Shown here piece after piece: positions 7,152 through 11,620 of a DNA stretch of 21,225 bases. Each line of letters starts with the position of its first letter. Position 1 is the stretch's first letter. The DNA is taken from IMG/VR virus record IMGVR_UViG_3300046169_000021, positions 1 through 21,225 of that record; one strand, given 5' to 3'. The notes under the pieces were generated by a model. It did no database searches. It was not told the origin of the DNA and saw only the letters and a list, made by a program, of their open reading frames with translations. This stretch comes from a virus. The position numbers and the translations under genes were made by a program.

Positions 7152-8405
7152 TTAGTACCCTGCGTAAGTATCTAAAAATTCAAATTCTTCTTCCACATAG
7201 TCCGAGGTGTAGGCTATGTTAGCCAACTGGTCTATGTAAGCGAGTGAGTCAATCAAGTCATCGTGTACAAGTTGATTGGGGAATTGAAACAGCTCATCTA
7301 AGAACTCTGTATTCCACGAACCCTTGTTAAGTGTAATCTTACCGTGTTCAAACCTACCTTGCAAAGCCCACACGATTCTATCGGTCTTCTTCTTGTTGCC
7401 GTGAGTTAGTTCCTCAATACGGAAGAACCTATCATTAGCCTTCATTAAGTCTGAGATGTATGGAAGTACAGCGTTCTTTAACGCCCCTTTCTCGATACCC
7501 ACGGACACTGGACGATAGTCTCGTACAGCTTCAAAGATTTTACGTGCAGTTTCTTCCACACCCCAACGACCATGAATGATGTCAGCAACGTACCAACCTT
7601 CTTCATTTGCTTTAACAACCGAGATAGCCGTTTGGTCAAGTCGTTTAGTTTTAGTTGTAGCTTTTGCCACATCAGCAAACCCCGCCAAATCGACAGCAAT
7701 ATAATACTGACCACTAGTGGGTTCTTCTTCAGAAAACTTAATGTAATCTTCTTTAAATAATTCACTGCCCTGTGCCTCGAAGGATGCCATGAACTCCTGA
7801 CGAAAACTAAAGGCTGACATAGACTTTTTAGCCGCTTCAATTTCTTCAGGGTCTAGTAGTGGATTATCATAGCTTGTAAAGTGATAACCTACAAAGGTCT
7901 CATCCTTTGACACACAAGCATAAGTATATAAGTCATAGAAGTGATTACGTCCCATTGGCGTACCAATGAATAACGCATCTCCCTTTTGGTCAGCTAGTGC
8001 AGGTCTAAGGATTTGCTCCCAGACCTCTGGCTTCATATCTGCATACTCATCCATAACGAGGAACTTAAGACTGACACCACGCATGGTTTCTGGTCTATCT
8101 GCACCCTTTAGTGCTATGGTTGCCCCGTTGACTAGCTTTATTTGTAAGTTATTAACATGACTAGAAGTTATGACGGGGTTGCCAATCTCCATCAATACCT
8201 GCCACATAATGTCCCTAGCCTGACCCTGTGTAGGTGCAACGTAGAACACATGACCCTTGTCCGACTGTAAAGCCCTGATGATTAACATCCATGCGGCTAG
8301 TCTGGACTTGCCTGTACGTCTACCTGCGGCTATGACCTTGAATCTAGTTGTGTCCTCAAAGACTTCCTGTTGCCACGGTAGTAGCGATACGTTTAACTCA
8401 GTCAT
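7152..8405 (-). CDS. terL: Terminase large subunit (packaging ATPase-nuclease)
   Basis: 417 residues. It pumps DNA into the procapsid and cuts the concatemer. The ATPase domain shows Walker A AGRRTGKS (residues 27-34), Walker B FLVMDEYA (Asp119, Glu120) and the coupling motif GTP (148-150). The RNase H-fold nuclease domain shows AVDLAG (Asp239), GIEKGA (Glu305) and VHDDLIDSLAY (Asp382/383, Asp386), which fit the three catalytic acidic positions. The protein is compact compared with T7 gp19 (586) but complete. Its ATG overlaps the upstream stop codon by one base. The N-terminal PWQQEVFEDTTRFKVIAAG stretch is the usual adenine-binding Q-motif region. Confidence 0.95.
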   Translation of the reverse strand: MTELNVSLLPWQQEVFEDTTRFKVIAAGRRTGKSRLAAWMLIIRALQSDKGHVFYVAPTQGQARDIMWQVLMEIGNPVITSSHVNNLQIKLVNGATIALKGADRPETMRGVSLKFLVMDEYADMKPEVWEQILRPALADQKGDALFIGTPMGRNHFYDLYTYACVSKDETFVGYHFTSYDNPLLDPEEIEAAKKSMSAFSFRQEFMASFEAQGSELFKEDYIKFSEEEPTSGQYYIAVDLAGFADVAKATTKTKRLDQTAISVVKANEEGWYVADIIHGRWGVEETARKIFEAVRDYRPVSVGIEKGALKNAVLPYISDLMKANDRFFRIEELTHGNKKKTDRIVWALQGRFEHGKITLNKGSWNTEFLDELFQFPNQLVHDDLIDSLAYIDQLANIAYTSDYVEEEFEFLDTYAGY

Positions 8406-8765: not shown

Positions 8766-9128
8766 TTAGTAAGTCCACATTACATAAGGGGTTGTATCGT
8801 CAGGACTGCGGATATCAACATGGACGAAGCCACGAGCAACTCCCACGCCTGTGAATCCAAGCGCGATAGCCTTCTCAACGATTTTAAAACGCTGTAGACC
8901 GTTGTTGACTTTGATATCCGCGGCAATGCCCTGTGCATGAGTTCCTGTTCCTGGTTTTTCTTTCTTAGCTTCAATTGGGTGGCTAGGGTCTCTGTACCCC
9001 GATGTAATAATAAACGGGAAACCACAGGCTTCCCGAAGTTCATCTAAACGCTCAATGAACTCAGGTTTAATTTTGTTTTTACCTGTGTATTGACAAGCGA
9101 ACTCTTGTCTATTGAAGTACTTAGCCAT
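8766..9128 (-). CDS. M15-family zinc peptidase, probable endolysin
   Basis: 120 residues, close to the minimal Peptidase_M15_3 domain. Motifs are ITSGYRDPSHP (41-51), GTHAQGIAADIKV with His64 and Asp71, and FVHVDIR with His103, giving the His-Asp-His zinc site and the HxD catalytic pair. These enzymes cut peptide cross-links in peptidoglycan, either at lysis or locally during DNA entry. There is no signal peptide, so lysis would need a holin, and none was recognised next to it. The ATG overlaps the 3' end of the small terminase gene by 8 bases. Its position between the two terminase genes is atypical for a lysis gene. Confidence 0.9.
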   Translation of the reverse strand: MAKYFNRQEFACQYTGKNKIKPEFIERLDELREACGFPFIITSGYRDPSHPIEAKKEKPGTGTHAQGIAADIKVNNGLQRFKIVEKAIALGFTGVGVARGFVHVDIRSPDDTTPYVMWTY

Positions 9129-9522
9129 CTATGATTTCCCCTTCATCAATAGCATCTTCTTGGCTTGACACCACTGTAGTCTCTCCTCCAACTCCAGTAA
9201 TGTTTATCTGTATCGCTGACTTACCCGCGCCCTTAATGACATCATTCTCAAATACAGCTGTGGGTAATATCCTATCCATGACTAACTTCCATGCCGCGGC
9301 TTGATTCTTATGGTCATCGTTAAGTGCCGCATCGAATATAGAGTCTAGGACTTTACGAGACTTAGGGGATGACAACATCCTGCCCTTGTACTCGTTGATG
9401 ATAGCCGCATCACCCTTCGGGCGACCCCTTGACAAACCAGTAGTGCCTTTTTTTCTTGACACCATATCTGATTTCTTAGGTCTGCCCCTTCTCCTTTTCG
9501 GAGTAGCTGTATTATCGTCCAT
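9121..9522 (-). CDS. Terminase small subunit-like DNA-binding protein with two AT hooks
   Basis: 133 residues, first gene of the minus arm. The N-terminus contains KRRRGRPKK (residues 9-17) and SRGRPKG (31-37), both with the RGRP core of an AT hook that binds the minor groove of AT-rich DNA. The central part (INEYKGRMLSSPKSRKVLDS, then a DDHKNQAAAWKLVMDRILP helix) followed by an acidic tail fits the small terminase proteins I recall from marine phages. A small terminase recognises the packaging site and regulates the large subunit. The leading position, next to a probable packaging or origin region, agrees. The ribosome binding site is AAGGAG, embedded in the CTTAAG repeat array. It could instead be a regulator. 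Confidence 0.68.
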   Translation of the reverse strand: MDDNTATPKRRRGRPKKSDMVSRKKGTTGLSRGRPKGDAAIINEYKGRMLSSPKSRKVLDSIFDAALNDDHKNQAAAWKLVMDRILPTAVFENDVIKGAGKSAIQINITGVGGETTVVSSQEDAIDEGEIIDG

Positions 9523-9531
9523 TGTATTCTC

Positions 9532-9557
9532 CTTAAGTTATCTTAAGTATACTTAGG
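9532..9557. repeat. CTTAAG array A (three half-sites, 10-bp period)
   Basis: CTTAAGTTAT (9532), CTTAAGTATA (9542) and CTTAGGGACG (9552) follow one another at exactly 10-bp spacing. Bases 9542-9557 match the palindrome CTTAAGTATACTTAAG with one mismatch. The array overlaps the ribosome binding site of the small terminase gene on the minus strand. Confidence 0.8.
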
Positions 9558-9604
9558 GACGCGTTTAGTATTTAACTTTAAAGAATAATCATTAAAGAAT
9601 AATA

Positions 9605-9634
9605 TCTAAGACTACTTAAGTATCCTTAAGGCTT
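9605..9634. repeat. CTTAAG array B
   Basis: Bases 9615-9630 read CTTAAGTATCCTTAAG, one mismatch from the palindrome CTTAAGTATACTTAAG, with a weaker third unit TCTAAGACTA at 9605. It lies about 20-40 bases downstream of the start point expected for the minus-strand promoter at 9659-9687, so a bound protein could block elongation or the RNA could fold here. Confidence 0.8.
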
Positions 9635-9658
9635 TAAATTAATCTATACTATAAGTAT

Positions 9659-9687
9659 ATTATAGCATATTTATAGCTTAATGTCAA
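9659..9687 (-). promoter_or_regulatory. Consensus sigma-70 promoter of the packaging-head arm
   Basis: On the minus strand, TTGACA (9687-9682), a 17-base spacer and TATAAT (9664-9659): a perfect consensus promoter. Transcription would start near 9652 and run through terminase and portal genes. The core context AGTACTTGACATT is the same as in the promoter at 4240-4268. Confidence 0.9.
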
Positions 9688-9780
9688 GTACTTTATTAGC
9701 TTATTTAGACCCGCGAGCCAACTTTTTAGTTCCATAACTAATAGTAATTAAATTGTCCCTTTATATGAATATTTGTCATA

Positions 9781-9810
9781 CTTAAGTATACATAAGAATA
9801 CATAAGGAAA
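9781..9810. repeat. CTTAAG array C (three units, 10-bp period)
   Basis: CTTAAGTATA (9781), CATAAGAATA (9791) and CATAAGGAAA (9801) are spaced exactly 10 bp. Bases 9781-9796 match CTTAAGTATACTTAAG with one mismatch. It lies upstream of the minus-arm promoter. Confidence 0.75.
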
Positions 9811-9906
9811 ACAAATACTTAGGGGATAAACTTCGGTTAATTCTTTTTATTGAATTTTAGCTTTTTTAGTATACCTGCGGGTACACCTTTGATTAACTCA
9901 GGTCAG

Positions 9907-9923
9907 CCCGCCCCCCCACCCCC
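9907..9923 (-). other. Possible G-quadruplex tract
   Basis: The plus strand has CCCG, seven C, A, five C; the minus strand therefore carries G-runs of 5, 7 and 3, enough for four GGG tracts with loops of 1-3 bases. This is a striking GC-rich island in AT-rich surroundings. Formation is inferred from the pattern only. Confidence 0.55.
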
Positions 9924-9926
9924 AAG

Positions 9927-10028
9927 AATCCTCTAGCATATCCACAAGTATAACACAAGGATTAGGGGTGACTGGAATCCTTAAGGCGGTCACAAGGAAT
10001 CCTGTACAGGGGAACGTGAGTATGCTAG
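9927..10028. repeat. Cluster of AATCCT elements and palindromes, candidate origin or packaging site
   Basis: AATCCT occurs at 9927, 9976 and 9998, and in reverse orientation (AGGATT) at 9958. A perfect 10-bp palindrome CCTGTACAGG is at 10001-10010. The cluster is bounded by an inverted pair CTAGCATA (9933-9940) and TATGCTAG (10021-10028), and CACAAGGA is repeated at 9954 and 9991. Such dense short elements are typical of protein-binding loci, for example replication origins. Confidence 0.5.
9968..9993. promoter_or_regulatory. Dyad operator candidate 1 (GTGAC-N16-GTCAC)
   Basis: GTGAC at 9968-9972 and GTCAC at 9989-9993 form an inverted pair with a 16-base spacer. The same arrangement recurs at 10126-10151. 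The two copies also agree at several spacer positions (a T, GA and TTA at equal offsets and a final G). Confidence 0.5.
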
Positions 10029-10061
10029 TGGATACCTATAGACACACCTGAGATAAAACAC

Positions 10062-10090
10062 TTGACAAACTAAACCCGTTATGTTATACG
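10062..10090 (+). promoter_or_regulatory. Candidate sigma-70 promoter P1 of the plus arm
   Basis: TTGACA at 10062-10067 is perfect; 17 bases later TATACG at 10085-10090 is a weaker -10. Transcription would begin near 10097, ahead of the second dyad and the second promoter. Confidence 0.55.
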
Positions 10091-10125
10091 TATGCGCGCG
10101 CCTGTATATAAAGGTATATTATAAC

Positions 10126-10151
10126 GTGACTAGATTGTTTATATTGGTCAC
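10126..10151. promoter_or_regulatory. Dyad operator candidate 2 (GTGAC-N16-GTCAC)
   Basis: GTGAC at 10126-10130 and GTCAC at 10147-10151, spacer 16, the same geometry as copy 1 and 158 bp away (about 15 helical turns). It ends 10 bases upstream of the -35 of P2, a position that suits an activator, and downstream of P1, which suits repression of P1. Confidence 0.5.
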
Positions 10152-10161
10152 TCTTTAGGTA

Positions 10162-10189
10162 TTGACTTTATATTGTCATTGTATATAAT
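10162..10189 (+). promoter_or_regulatory. Sigma-70 promoter P2 of the plus arm
   Basis: TTGACT at 10162-10167, 16-base spacer, TATAAT at 10184-10189. It is the promoter nearest to the first plus-strand gene (ATG at 10223) and has a perfect -10 element. Confidence 0.8.
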
Positions 10190-10222
10190 GGTTGCATCAA
10201 TTAATTAAACAGGTGCAACAAT

Positions 10223-10432
10223 ATGAAATATAATGCTAAACAGCTAAACAATGGACAATGGGCGGTCTTTACTGGTAAACAGTATTTCCCCCATACTGTA
10301 GCAGATACCAAAGTAGAAGCGCATATATGGGCGATTAAAGAGTCTGCTATATGGCATCAGCAACAGCTTGATAAACTAGAAGATGAATTTGGTATAGTAG
10401 AAGGTTCTACGCTCAAAGAGTGGATTTGCTAA
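10223..10432 (+). CDS. Small protein of unknown function, first early gene
   Basis: 69 residues, with many aromatic residues (four Trp) and a helical C-terminal half (QQQLDKLEDEF). There is no recognised family, cysteine motif or membrane segment. ATG is preceded by AGGTG at 10211-10215, 7 bases upstream, within the leader TTAAACAGGTG that is reused by the next two genes. As the first gene after the strong promoter it is probably made immediately after infection. Early phage proteins in this position often act on host functions, but no target can be named. Confidence 0.72.
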   Translation: MKYNAKQLNNGQWAVFTGKQYFPHTVADTKVEAHIWAIKESAIWHQQQLDKLEDEFGIVEGSTLKEWIC

Positions 10433-10433
10433 G

Positions 10434-10478
10434 TAAATATATAGAGCCTGTTAGCGATAGCAGGTTCCGTTATATTTA
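10434..10478 (+). other. Intergenic hairpin 1 with GNRA loop
   Basis: Bases 10444-10467 form a 10-bp stem (two G-U pairs) closed by a GCGA (GNRA) tetraloop. An outer AT stem (10434-10441 with 10471-10478) extends it past a small internal loop. It starts two bases after a stop codon and ends just before the next gene's leader. The U-run after it is weak, so it may be an attenuator, processing site or stability element. Confidence 0.7.
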
Positions 10479-10507
10479 TTTAAACATTAACTAAACAGGT
10501 GATTATT

Positions 10508-10819
10508 ATGAGACAAATAGAAAAAAATATTGTAGGTGCTTTTATTCGCGGTGAGAATGCTAGAACGGATAACACTGAATCTAAAAATGGTACATTGTTT
10601 TTACACGGCAATCCTATTGCTATGCTAGGCGACAATGATAGATTGTATATCAGCAATGCGGGTTGGGAAACACGAACCACACAGAGCAGGCTTAACGCTG
10701 TTTTAACGCTTGCAAATAAGTATACTAGAGTTTATACGCGCAATTATGAGATGCGACTGGATAGTGGTGAAAATGATATTGTCACAATGAATAGTGACTG
10801 GTATTTAGTAACAGAATAA
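10508..10819 (+). CDS. Small protein of unknown function
   Basis: 103 residues from ATG 10508; the upstream GTG at 10499 overlaps the ribosome binding site AGGTG (10497-10501) and is not a good start. The middle (NGTLFLHGNPIAMLGDNDRL, then SNAGWETRTTQSRLNAVL) looks like a small domain seen in phage and plasmid proteins in which a GW-x-T-x-T-x2-R-x-N signature recurs; no function is known to me. There are no cysteines and no membrane segment. It is preceded by the shared leader TAAACAGGTG and flanked on both sides by intergenic hairpins. Confidence 0.75.
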   Translation: MRQIEKNIVGAFIRGENARTDNTESKNGTLFLHGNPIAMLGDNDRLYISNAGWETRTTQSRLNAVLTLANKYTRVYTRNYEMRLDSGENDIVTMNSDWYLVTE

Positions 10820-10824
10820 GCTAG

Positions 10825-10870
10825 TTAATTTATCGCGCCTATTGTCCACCAGTGGGCGTCATTAAATTAA
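10825..10870 (+). other. Intergenic hairpin 2, same architecture as hairpin 1
   Basis: Inner stem 10836-10844 with 10850-10858 (9 bp, two G-U pairs, loop of 5). Outer AT stem TTAATTTA (10825-10832) with TAAATTAA (10863-10870), separated by a small internal loop. Its total length of 46 bases nearly equals that of hairpin 1 (45), and it likewise precedes a TTAAACAGGTG leader. Confidence 0.65.
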
Positions 10871-10893
10871 TTAAACTTTAAACAGGTGATAAC

Positions 10894-11223
10894 ATGATTA
10901 AATTTCCAAGCGGTTTAAAATTTGGCAATGGTGAAGATTCACTAGTCGATTCGCTGTTTACTGGTTCTACTACCAATGATGGGTGGTATACGGTAACAGG
11001 TAGAAAGTATAAAACAATGCGATTCTTTACAGGTAACGGGAAACCATTGTTCTACATTGTCAGTAATAAACACGGCATTACTAGCGGCAATTTGACTAGT
11101 AACGCTGATAAGTTTTATTATATGGCGGGTACTTGTAGTTTAACCAGTAAAAAACTAGGCTTAGATAAACTGGATTACACTACGGAAAAAACTTTGATTA
11201 CTGATATTATTGAGGTGGCATAA
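10894..11223 (+). CDS. Small protein of unknown function
   Basis: 109 residues, rich in Gly, Ser, Thr and Lys, probably beta-containing (DGWYTVTGRKYKTMRFF, PLFYIVSNKHG). One cysteine only. There is no recognised domain. The ATG follows the third copy of the leader TTAAACAGGTG (10878-10888) with 5 bases spacing. The stop is one base before the next ATG, so the downstream 45-residue gene is cotranslated. The three leader-sharing proteins (10223, 10508, 10894) show no obvious sequence similarity to one another. Confidence 0.73.
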   Translation: MIKFPSGLKFGNGEDSLVDSLFTGSTTNDGWYTVTGRKYKTMRFFTGNGKPLFYIVSNKHGITSGNLTSNADKFYYMAGTCSLTSKKLGLDKLDYTTEKTLITDIIEVA

Positions 11224-11224
11224 T

Positions 11225-11362
11225 ATGAATACATATATTGAGATTAAAGAGTTGATTCCTGTAATCCTTGATTTGGGATGGATGGTTAAAAACGATACGT
11301 GGACTGATTGCCCCTATCGCATCTATGAACAACTAGAAGCAGACTATAATTGCGACCAGTAA
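11225..11362 (+). CDS. Very small acidic protein, unknown
   Basis: 45 residues (MNTYIEIKEL start, two cysteines, net acidic). The start is one base after the preceding stop and has GAGGTGG 9 bases upstream inside that gene. It ends 9 bases before a strong terminator. The amphipathic N-terminal segment (IKELIPVILDLGWM) may be a helix. No family is recognised. Confidence 0.6.
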   Translation: MNTYIEIKELIPVILDLGWMVKNDTWTDCPYRIYEQLEADYNCDQ

Positions 11363-11371
11363 GCACCAAAG

Positions 11372-11401
11372 AACGCCCTGTAATCCCTTGTAGGGCGTTT
11401 T
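11372..11401 (+). terminator. Rho-independent terminator of the first early unit
   Basis: AACGCCCT (11372-11379) pairs with AGGGCGTT (11392-11399), extended inward to a 12-bp stem with two G-U pairs and a TCCC loop, followed by TTTT. It separates the four leader genes from the next block, which may be served by read-through since no clear promoter is visible before 11471. Confidence 0.85.
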
Positions 11402-11470
11402 CTAGTGTTTATTAGTAGGATAGTATAGGTTAGCCGTAAAATGGCTTAGAATTGATTATATGAGGTTATT

Positions 11471-11620
11471 ATGAATTATACAGCGGAAAGATATTTAGCA
11501 TTGAAACAGTTTGAACGAGAGCAAAAACGCGATAAGATACGCGCGTTATTGTGGAACGTGTCAATTACTAGCATCTATGCTATGGTAGTGATTCAAGTAT
11601 TTACAGGGGTTATATCATGA
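11471..11620 (+). CDS. Single-span membrane protein, unknown
   Basis: 49 residues. Residues 1-24 are charged (ERYLALKQFEREQKRDKIR) and residues 25-49 form a hydrophobic span (ALLWNVSITSIYAMVVIQVF), consistent with an inner-membrane protein with N-terminus inside. GAGG sits 7 bases before the ATG. It ends in an ATGATG overlap with the next gene. Candidates are superinfection exclusion, a holin-like role or membrane remodelling; holin seems less likely given its distance from the peptidase gene and its early position. Confidence 0.65.
   Translation: MNYTAERYLALKQFEREQKRDKIRALLWNVSITSIYAMVVIQVFTGVIS

Follow-up and report, generated by a model that had tools for sequence, protein, structure and literature searches.

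Paired sites in the divergent region of a virus contig family point to a probable fixed genome end with a short terminal repeat

The gap between the two divergent operons of a virus contig, IMGVR_UViG_3300046169_000021, is in our judgement probably the fixed end of a tailed-phage genome of about 35 kb, cut by terminase and bearing a direct terminal repeat some 149 bp long. The record was analysed over its full 21,225 bp, which we refer to as the window. Two copies of one site, co-varying between lineages, stand in the gap with a C-tract between them, and contigs of relatives end on these sites. If our reading is true, the genome ends of a phage family, and hence its packaging mode, can be had from contig data alone. 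The family runs to hundreds of public contigs, and its terS gene found no match among 50,697 phage records (E 0.01). The genome end may also double as a control point, through the candidate host-regulator sites found in many of the relatives.

Genes around the locus

The locus lies in a non-coding gap at 9523-10222 (Table 1). To its left, on the minus strand, are a terS-like gene, an endolysin gene, terL (the terminase large subunit) and genes for a portal, a scaffold-like protein and the major capsid protein. To its right, on the plus strand, are small early genes and genes for a Gp2.5-like single-stranded DNA-binding protein (ssb), a primase-helicase, a DNA polymerase, a Cas4-like exonuclease, an endonuclease and a ribonucleotide reductase. 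The name terS is a positional assignment, made from the place of the gene beside terL. Its product has no PHROG match and its Pfam matches fall under the cut-off in the window (the GRP/AT-hook motifs pass it in the homologue of locus L153), while its predicted structure is a weak model with a mean pLDDT of 56.5. The rest of the genome is also some way from cultured phages: the isolate TerL matches, among those listed, are T4-like at about 24% identity, every capsid match in the phage collection is below 60%, and the nearest isolate primase, from Pelagibacter phage HTVC115P, is at most 50% identical. Site-specific recombinase families had no match among the 20 window proteins searched, and the single resolvase-like match, phrog_9019, belongs to the endonuclease. 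The phage RNA polymerase family PF00940 was silent in 10 records, as it was in all 14 of 14 control genomes.

Table 1. Features of the window at and near the locus; the terminal repeat and its boundaries are predicted
Feature	Position	Strand	Remarks
Terminase large subunit gene	7152..8405	-	PF03237 7.6e-18, PF17289 1.5e-9, both above cut-off
terS-like gene, 133 aa, GRP/AT-hook motifs	9121..9522	-	role suggested by place beside terL
Sigma-70-type promoter match, 12/12, TTGACA-17-TATAAT	9659..9687	-	reads towards terS/terL/portal
Site 1, first copy of motif GTATRCNNGNGGRTACC, 1 mismatch	9869..9885	+	putative left boundary
Direct terminal repeat (predicted), 149 bp	9883..10031		one copy in the 21-kb record; boundaries transferred from G002 and G033
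C-tract CCCGCCCCCCCACCCCC	9907..9923	+	similar form in most relatives
Variable cassette, box-poor, with CACAAG repeats and AATCCT elements	9926..10015		DnaA-like ATATCCACA at 9938-9946
Inverted repeat GTGAC-N16-GTCAC	9968..9993		retained in several close relatives
Site 2, second copy of motif, GTATGCTAGTGGATACC	10020..10036	+	putative right boundary
Sigma-70-type promoter match, 11/12	10162..10189	+	reads towards early genes

The leftward promoter (9687 to 9659) is mostly retained in an alignment of the window with 18 relatives. Promoter-like matches over the 2.1 kb of 9400-11500 came to 12, with 8.2 expected from shuffles. Around the leftward promoter there are three copies of a CTTAAGTAT-type repeat (9532-9559, 9605-9632 and 9781-9808). 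The hexamer CTTAAG has six copies within 9523-10822 of the window, and most close relatives have between three and nine. These repeats are possible operators controlling the late genes.

Paired sites around a variable cassette

The relatives come from viral contigs scanned with four terS queries; each query matched about 560-600 stretches, of which the best 80 were kept, giving 320 loci. Of 117 loci from a pattern scan, 47 satisfied a loose test of family membership, and a terS homologue was present in 32 of 35 checked. Conservation within the gap covers its AT-rich left portion, leftward promoter included, as well as site 1, the C-tract and site 2. With at most two mismatches allowed, the site motif is matched twice in 29 of the 30 relatives within L002-L038 that hold at least 600 nt of gap; the other, L016, has one match. 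For the distant loci L040-L081 the strict motif gives one site or none in most cases, and in distant clades both sites change together, as with GTATCTAGGTGGGATCT and GTGTCTAGGTTGGACCC. Over 115 distinct pairs, called automatically and, like the calls behind the edge placement and the cassette counts below, including some wrong ones, site 1 and site 2 of the same genome match at 10.67 of 17 bases. Shuffled pairs match at 9.46 (sd 0.15; best of 2,000 shuffles 10.0), and other pieces of the same gap, taken as background, at 7.8. Sites that co-vary by lineage in this way are as expected for the sites of one protein. They lie 87 to 328 bp apart, with a median of 150.

Between the C-tract and site 2 the sequence varies even between genomes with near-identical flanks. 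A cassette with a C-tract was found in 164 of 237 sequences. The CACAAG repeats of the window's cassette are common to close relatives in the alignment, and GTCACRRG was counted 29 times in cassettes and 6 times in the right flank. The C-tract may resemble the mitochondrial CSB II.

Contig ends on the sites

Two near-complete relatives have both ends on these sites. In G033 (35,752 bp) 146 bp are repeated exactly at the two ends, running from GTATCTGAGAGGGA^ in site 1 to GTGTCTAGGTTG^ in site 2. G002 (34,558 bp), which belongs to a different clade, starts GTATACAGGTGGAT^ and ends GTATACGTGCGG^, giving a terminal repeat of about 135 bp with one C-tract base differing between the ends. In both genomes the site 1 break follows base 14 and the site 2 break base 12. 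The two repeats differ in length, so one constant k-mer overlap does not account for both. A third long contig, G057 (37,662 bp), overlaps itself by at least 663 bp: it crosses the locus, returns to it and breaks off at site 2.

The same position, to within 2 nt, turns up when contig edges are collected across the family. The 320 loci listed contain 83 distinct edges within 900 nt right of terS; 65 of them could be mapped onto a relative and 18 could not, and 4 of the 65 had no site-2 call. Five of the 61 edges so placed on the terS side fall at offset +18/+19 from site 2, where 0.13 would be expected at uniform density over about 934 nt, a 2-nt window that we picked after viewing the edge positions. 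The five are L020 (the contig G002), L331 (G033), L379, L393 (G057) and L486; L331, L379 and L393 share one clade, so not all five are independent. Close to the spike lie L533 at +10 and L039, L366 and L406 at +22 to +27, and two of the unmapped contigs, L050 and L518, end in site 2 as judged by eye. Conservation of the motif continues for about 8-10 nt past the break point, and this argues against the breaks being due to strain divergence. In L078 primer-like sequence follows site 2, so that site 2 there is a junction and not a contig end. The sequence GTTTCCCAGTCACGATC or its complement, which resembles an amplification primer that was not trimmed from public viral contigs, is seen at or near contig ends in L078, L309, L405 and L458.

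Other edges are less tidy. Both ends could be read in 24 long records (one of which, G041, is probably outside the family), and 6 of them end in the segment from site 1 to site 2: G002, G020, G033, G051, G053 and G057. G052 is uncertain and the rest end elsewhere. Overlaps of 77-127 bp at the ends of G001, G006, G035, G058 and G060 lie in other genes, which shows assembly to be a further source of terminal overlaps. G020 begins within site 1, past base 5, and ends in the C-tract, where L031 and L037 also end. On the early-gene side, 13 of 141 starts map to the region and 2 of these 13 (G002 and G033) are at the predicted base; among the others, the start of L263 is at site 2, that of L083 at the C-tract and that of L088 in the cassette. 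Finally, 231 of the 320 listed loci (not all of them distinct contigs) continue for at least 900 nt past terS. Such run-through contigs do not exclude a terminal repeat, because a short repeat would not block assembly, though they do leave room for breaks caused by the C-tract or by strain mixing, and these two remain confounders of the contig-end evidence. Taken with the repeats of 135-146 bp in two near-complete relatives, the run-through loci speak against a cos site.

How, then, might such an end be made? Replication would yield circles or concatemers with one copy of the repeat between genome units. Terminase would cut at site 1 and at site 2 and the segment between them would be duplicated, so that the packaged genome would start at site 1, with the early genes next to it, and end at site 2, preceded by the late genes; both operons would then read inward from the genome ends. 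After entry the repeats would recombine, plausibly by means of the phage's Cas4-like exonuclease and Gp2.5-like protein. The cutting, the duplication and the part given here to terminase are inferred, as is the placing of the boundaries in the window.

Candidate host-type sites in the cassettes

We speak below of DnaA boxes, sigma-54 cores and Fur-like sites, by which we mean matches to consensus sequences. Across 61 loci the exact box TTATCCACA was found 113 times in 22.6 kb of zone at the locus and 4 times in 421.5 kb elsewhere, and 111 of the 113 lie on one strand. Control 9-mers, 31 in all (the reversed box and 30 permutations), averaged 0.23 in the zone and never exceeded 2. In the larger set of 213 distinct loci there are 314 exact DnaA boxes in 117 kb of zone and 17 in 1,015 kb elsewhere, the sequence outside being 8.7 times that inside. 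Two or more exact boxes are present in 94 of these loci; TTATNCACA is absent from the zone in 107. Within 137 distinct cassettes, from which the spacings and the comparisons with the right flank were also taken, TTATNCACA occurs 238 times, against 29 in the right flank, and successive boxes are most often 11 bp (44 cases) or 22 bp (23) apart, followed by 19 (13), 23 (10) and 33 bp (8). DnaA boxes occur in 16 of 49 cassette clusters. In L003, L016, L024, L034 and L038, CACACAGGC or CGCACAC-type repeats replace the boxes in the cassette or right flank.

The sigma-54 core TGGCAYRN4TTGC shows a similar concentration, with 186 copies in the zone and 40 elsewhere over the 213 distinct loci, and the count drops to 1, 0 and 0 in the zone when the spacer is N3, N5 or N6. 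These cores flank site 2 on both sides, 33 being in cassettes and 49 in the right flank. L521, L540, L541, L544, L552, L560 and others have tandem sigma-54-type cores at 250-800 nt right of terS, three to five of them, often with a spacing of about 47 bp. The Fur-like sequence AATGAGAATCA was counted 20 times in cassettes (10 cassettes of 3 clusters) and once in the right flank; in L080 and L379 it, or a close variant, lies between the C-tract and site 2.

The window itself is plainer. It has no exact DnaA box, in the predicted terminal repeat or anywhere else, and its best match, ATATCCACA with one mismatch, was equalled in 105 of 1,000 shuffles. No sigma-54 or Fur core was seen by eye in its predicted repeat. 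It belongs with the 92 of 213 loci that lack both a pair of DnaA boxes and a forward sigma-54 core. In L007, 88% identical to it along 1,001 nt, four TTATCCACA boxes stand at a place where the window lacks them, so the boxes are dispensable or replaceable.

From these arrays the segment could serve as an origin or a host-control element in many relatives, a suggestion that is weak for the window itself. A wider idea, which we float with more doubt than conviction, is that the terminal repeat is a swappable landing pad: lineages would fill the cassette with candidate DnaA, sigma-54 or Fur sites, the genome ends would engage host replication or transcription, and a change of cassette would be a change of host or of timing. 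If true, this suggests that arrays of sites for host replication and transcription may be carried at such genome ends, and it would give a sequence handle on the host link and infection timing of uncultured phages.

Alternative explanations

Two other readings of the locus are compatible with a terminal repeat. The segment could be a DnaA-dependent origin, where host DnaA binds phased boxes and opens the adjoining AT-rich DNA, the paired sites and C-tract being accessory and the contig breaks technical. We regard this as possible, with reservations. Exact boxes are concentrated in the zone, and their lying mostly on one strand at multiples of 11 bp favours DnaA assembly; the neighbouring 9560-9868 is 75% AT, but is also promoter DNA, and primase-helicase, polymerase and ssb genes are downstream. 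Some boxes are out of helical phase, however, the window has no exact box, half of the loci (the 107 above) have no TTATNCACA in the zone, and boxes that come and go between genomes as close as L007 and the window argue against a sole essential origin; nor does an origin account for contig ends on the paired sites. Alternatively the cassettes may be regulatory or decoy arrays: with their sites for DnaA, sigma-54 RNA polymerase and Fur at the genome end they would sense or soak up host regulators, or let the state of the host time early transcription. The enrichment of the sigma-54 core in the zone, specific to the N4 spacing, and of the Fur-like site in cassettes speaks for such arrays, as does the precedent of CtrA sites in the terminal repeats of some alphaproteobacterial phages (PMC9437464), a study in which DnaA sites showed no positional asymmetry in the phages. 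The sites are candidates by consensus match, the window's predicted repeat has none of the three kinds in clear form (no exact DnaA box; no sigma-54 or Fur core by eye), and sigma-54 cores lie outside cassettes as well as in them. We entertain this reading tentatively too.

The contig ends might also be artefacts of assembly, with the C-tract and a strain-variable cassette breaking the contigs of headful-packaged, permuted genomes, and with sites 1 and 2 as operators or as recombination sites for cassette exchange. The C-tract does differ in length between the two ends of G002, and likewise of G020; several contigs end in the C-tract or the cassette, long contigs end in other genes too, with assembly overlaps, and the cassette differs between near-identical flanks. 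Yet G002 and G033, from different clades, break at the same motif bases at both ends, the +18/+19 spike of edges falls inside a conserved motif, and none of the 20 window proteins searched matches a site-specific recombinase family. An artefact of this kind is, we think, unlikely. Chance features of an ordinary divergent promoter region are a very improbable explanation: the statistics of the short elements are mild (below), two strong sigma-70-type promoter matches flank the locus, and AATCCT and CCTGTACAGG are not conserved, but the paired sites and C-tract are, and host-type boxes are enriched in relatives. A fixed genome end with a terminal repeat is the reading that we prefer.

Short elements of the segment

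A sequence-only reading had marked 9907-10028 as a candidate origin or packaging locus for its short elements, and every one of them is where it was said to be: AATCCT at 9927, 9976 and 9998, AGGATT at 9958, the palindrome CCTGTACAGG at 10001, the repeat CACAAGGA at 9954 and 9991, and the flanking inverted pair of CTAGCATA at 9933 and TATGCTAG at 10021. Their density, which had been called unusual, is at best mildly above chance. Among 2000 shuffles of the 122-bp stretch that preserve its dinucleotides, 43 equal its 6-mer count of four over both strands, 204 reach a palindrome of at least 10, 190 an 8-bp inverted pair and 71 two or more 8-bp direct repeats, for motifs chosen post hoc with the sequence already in view. 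Sliding windows of the same size do equally well in 30, 69, 73 and 97 of 1,056 cases (6-mer, palindrome, inverted pair and direct repeats, respectively). Nor are the AATCCT set and the palindrome kept in relatives: among 75 of these, of which 12 cover no more than about 500 nt of the gap, CCTGTACAGG is in none, and AATCCT on the plus strand is found at most twice in any, against 4 in 1,300 nt of the window. CACAAGGA is present twice in L002, L004 and L010, and TATGCTAG falls within the conserved site 2.

A special non-coding locus does exist at that position. The terS-like gene is near it, as had been proposed, but about 385 bp away to the left and not adjacent. As to the choice between origin and packaging, packaging fits best, and is supported by inference from the relatives' contig ends, which fall on the two repeated sites bounding the stretch; an origin would have indirect support only, from box-bearing relatives and for those alone. 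GC skew had been put forward as a check. Its cumulative minimum is indeed at 9751-10250, but the genes switch strand there too, so the minimum decides nothing about an origin and we set it aside.

Relation to known phages

T7-like podoviruses have short, non-permuted direct terminal repeats, of about 160 bp in T7 and about 234 bp in cyanophage Pf-WMP3. A repeat of similar size is found at both ends of G033 and G002, terminase genes are close by, early genes are at one end, and the major capsid protein is 36.6% identical to that of Pf-WMP3 over 76% of its length. Here, in contrast, two copies of one site bound the repeat, and the late genes, on the opposite strand, run inward from the other genome end. 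Repeated terminase sites near the terminase genes are also a feature of lambda cosB and of pac; those of the present family differ as two like sites about 150 bp apart around a variable cassette. Compared with a bacterial oriC, the TTATCCACA boxes of relatives are likewise mostly on one strand with 11-bp spacing commonest, but they vary between near-identical genomes, and none is exact in the window.

With phages of the HMO-2011 type (HMO-2011, CRP-1, HTVC103P and HTVC115P) the family shares a primase at up to 50% identity, a portal at 20-28%, ribonucleotide reductase and polymerase genes, and late genes on the opposite strand. Those genomes are larger, at about 52-56 kb, and the phage collection holds no homologue of terS; a DnaA-box cluster is absent from HMO-2011 and HTVC115P. 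Membership of this group was considered and rejected on the portal identity, capsid identity below 60% and the want of a terS match.

A precedent for host-regulator sites at a genome end is CtrA. In some alphaproteobacterial phages its sites are concentrated in the terminal repeats or in gap regions, with EMSA and a reporter assay as tests (PMC9437464). The candidate sites of our family are concentrated in the predicted terminal repeat as in phiCbK-like phages, though the phiCbK repeat is 10,287 bp and its regulator CtrA (PMC9437464 and PMC3556154). For one Pseudomonas phage PMC11512268 gives a software-predicted origin with DnaA boxes. In the open-access PMC literature, to the extent that its text was available, we found no account of phage terminal repeats with arrays of DnaA boxes or sigma-54 cores. 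Such arrays would be new, and would extend the CtrA case.

Host scan and minor observations

A host scan of genome contigs matched 5 contigs of metagenome-assembled genomes (MAGs), in which binning errors are possible; one is labelled Crocinitomicaceae, two Flavobacteriales, one Planctomycetaceae and one Gammaproteobacteria. Right of the early genes, terminator-like hairpins are seen at 10444-10467 and 11370-11401. Primase and helicase form one open reading frame in the window and are separate genes in HMO-2011, and the corresponding parts of G033 (locus L591, 4516-6200) are matched by two frames that overlap.
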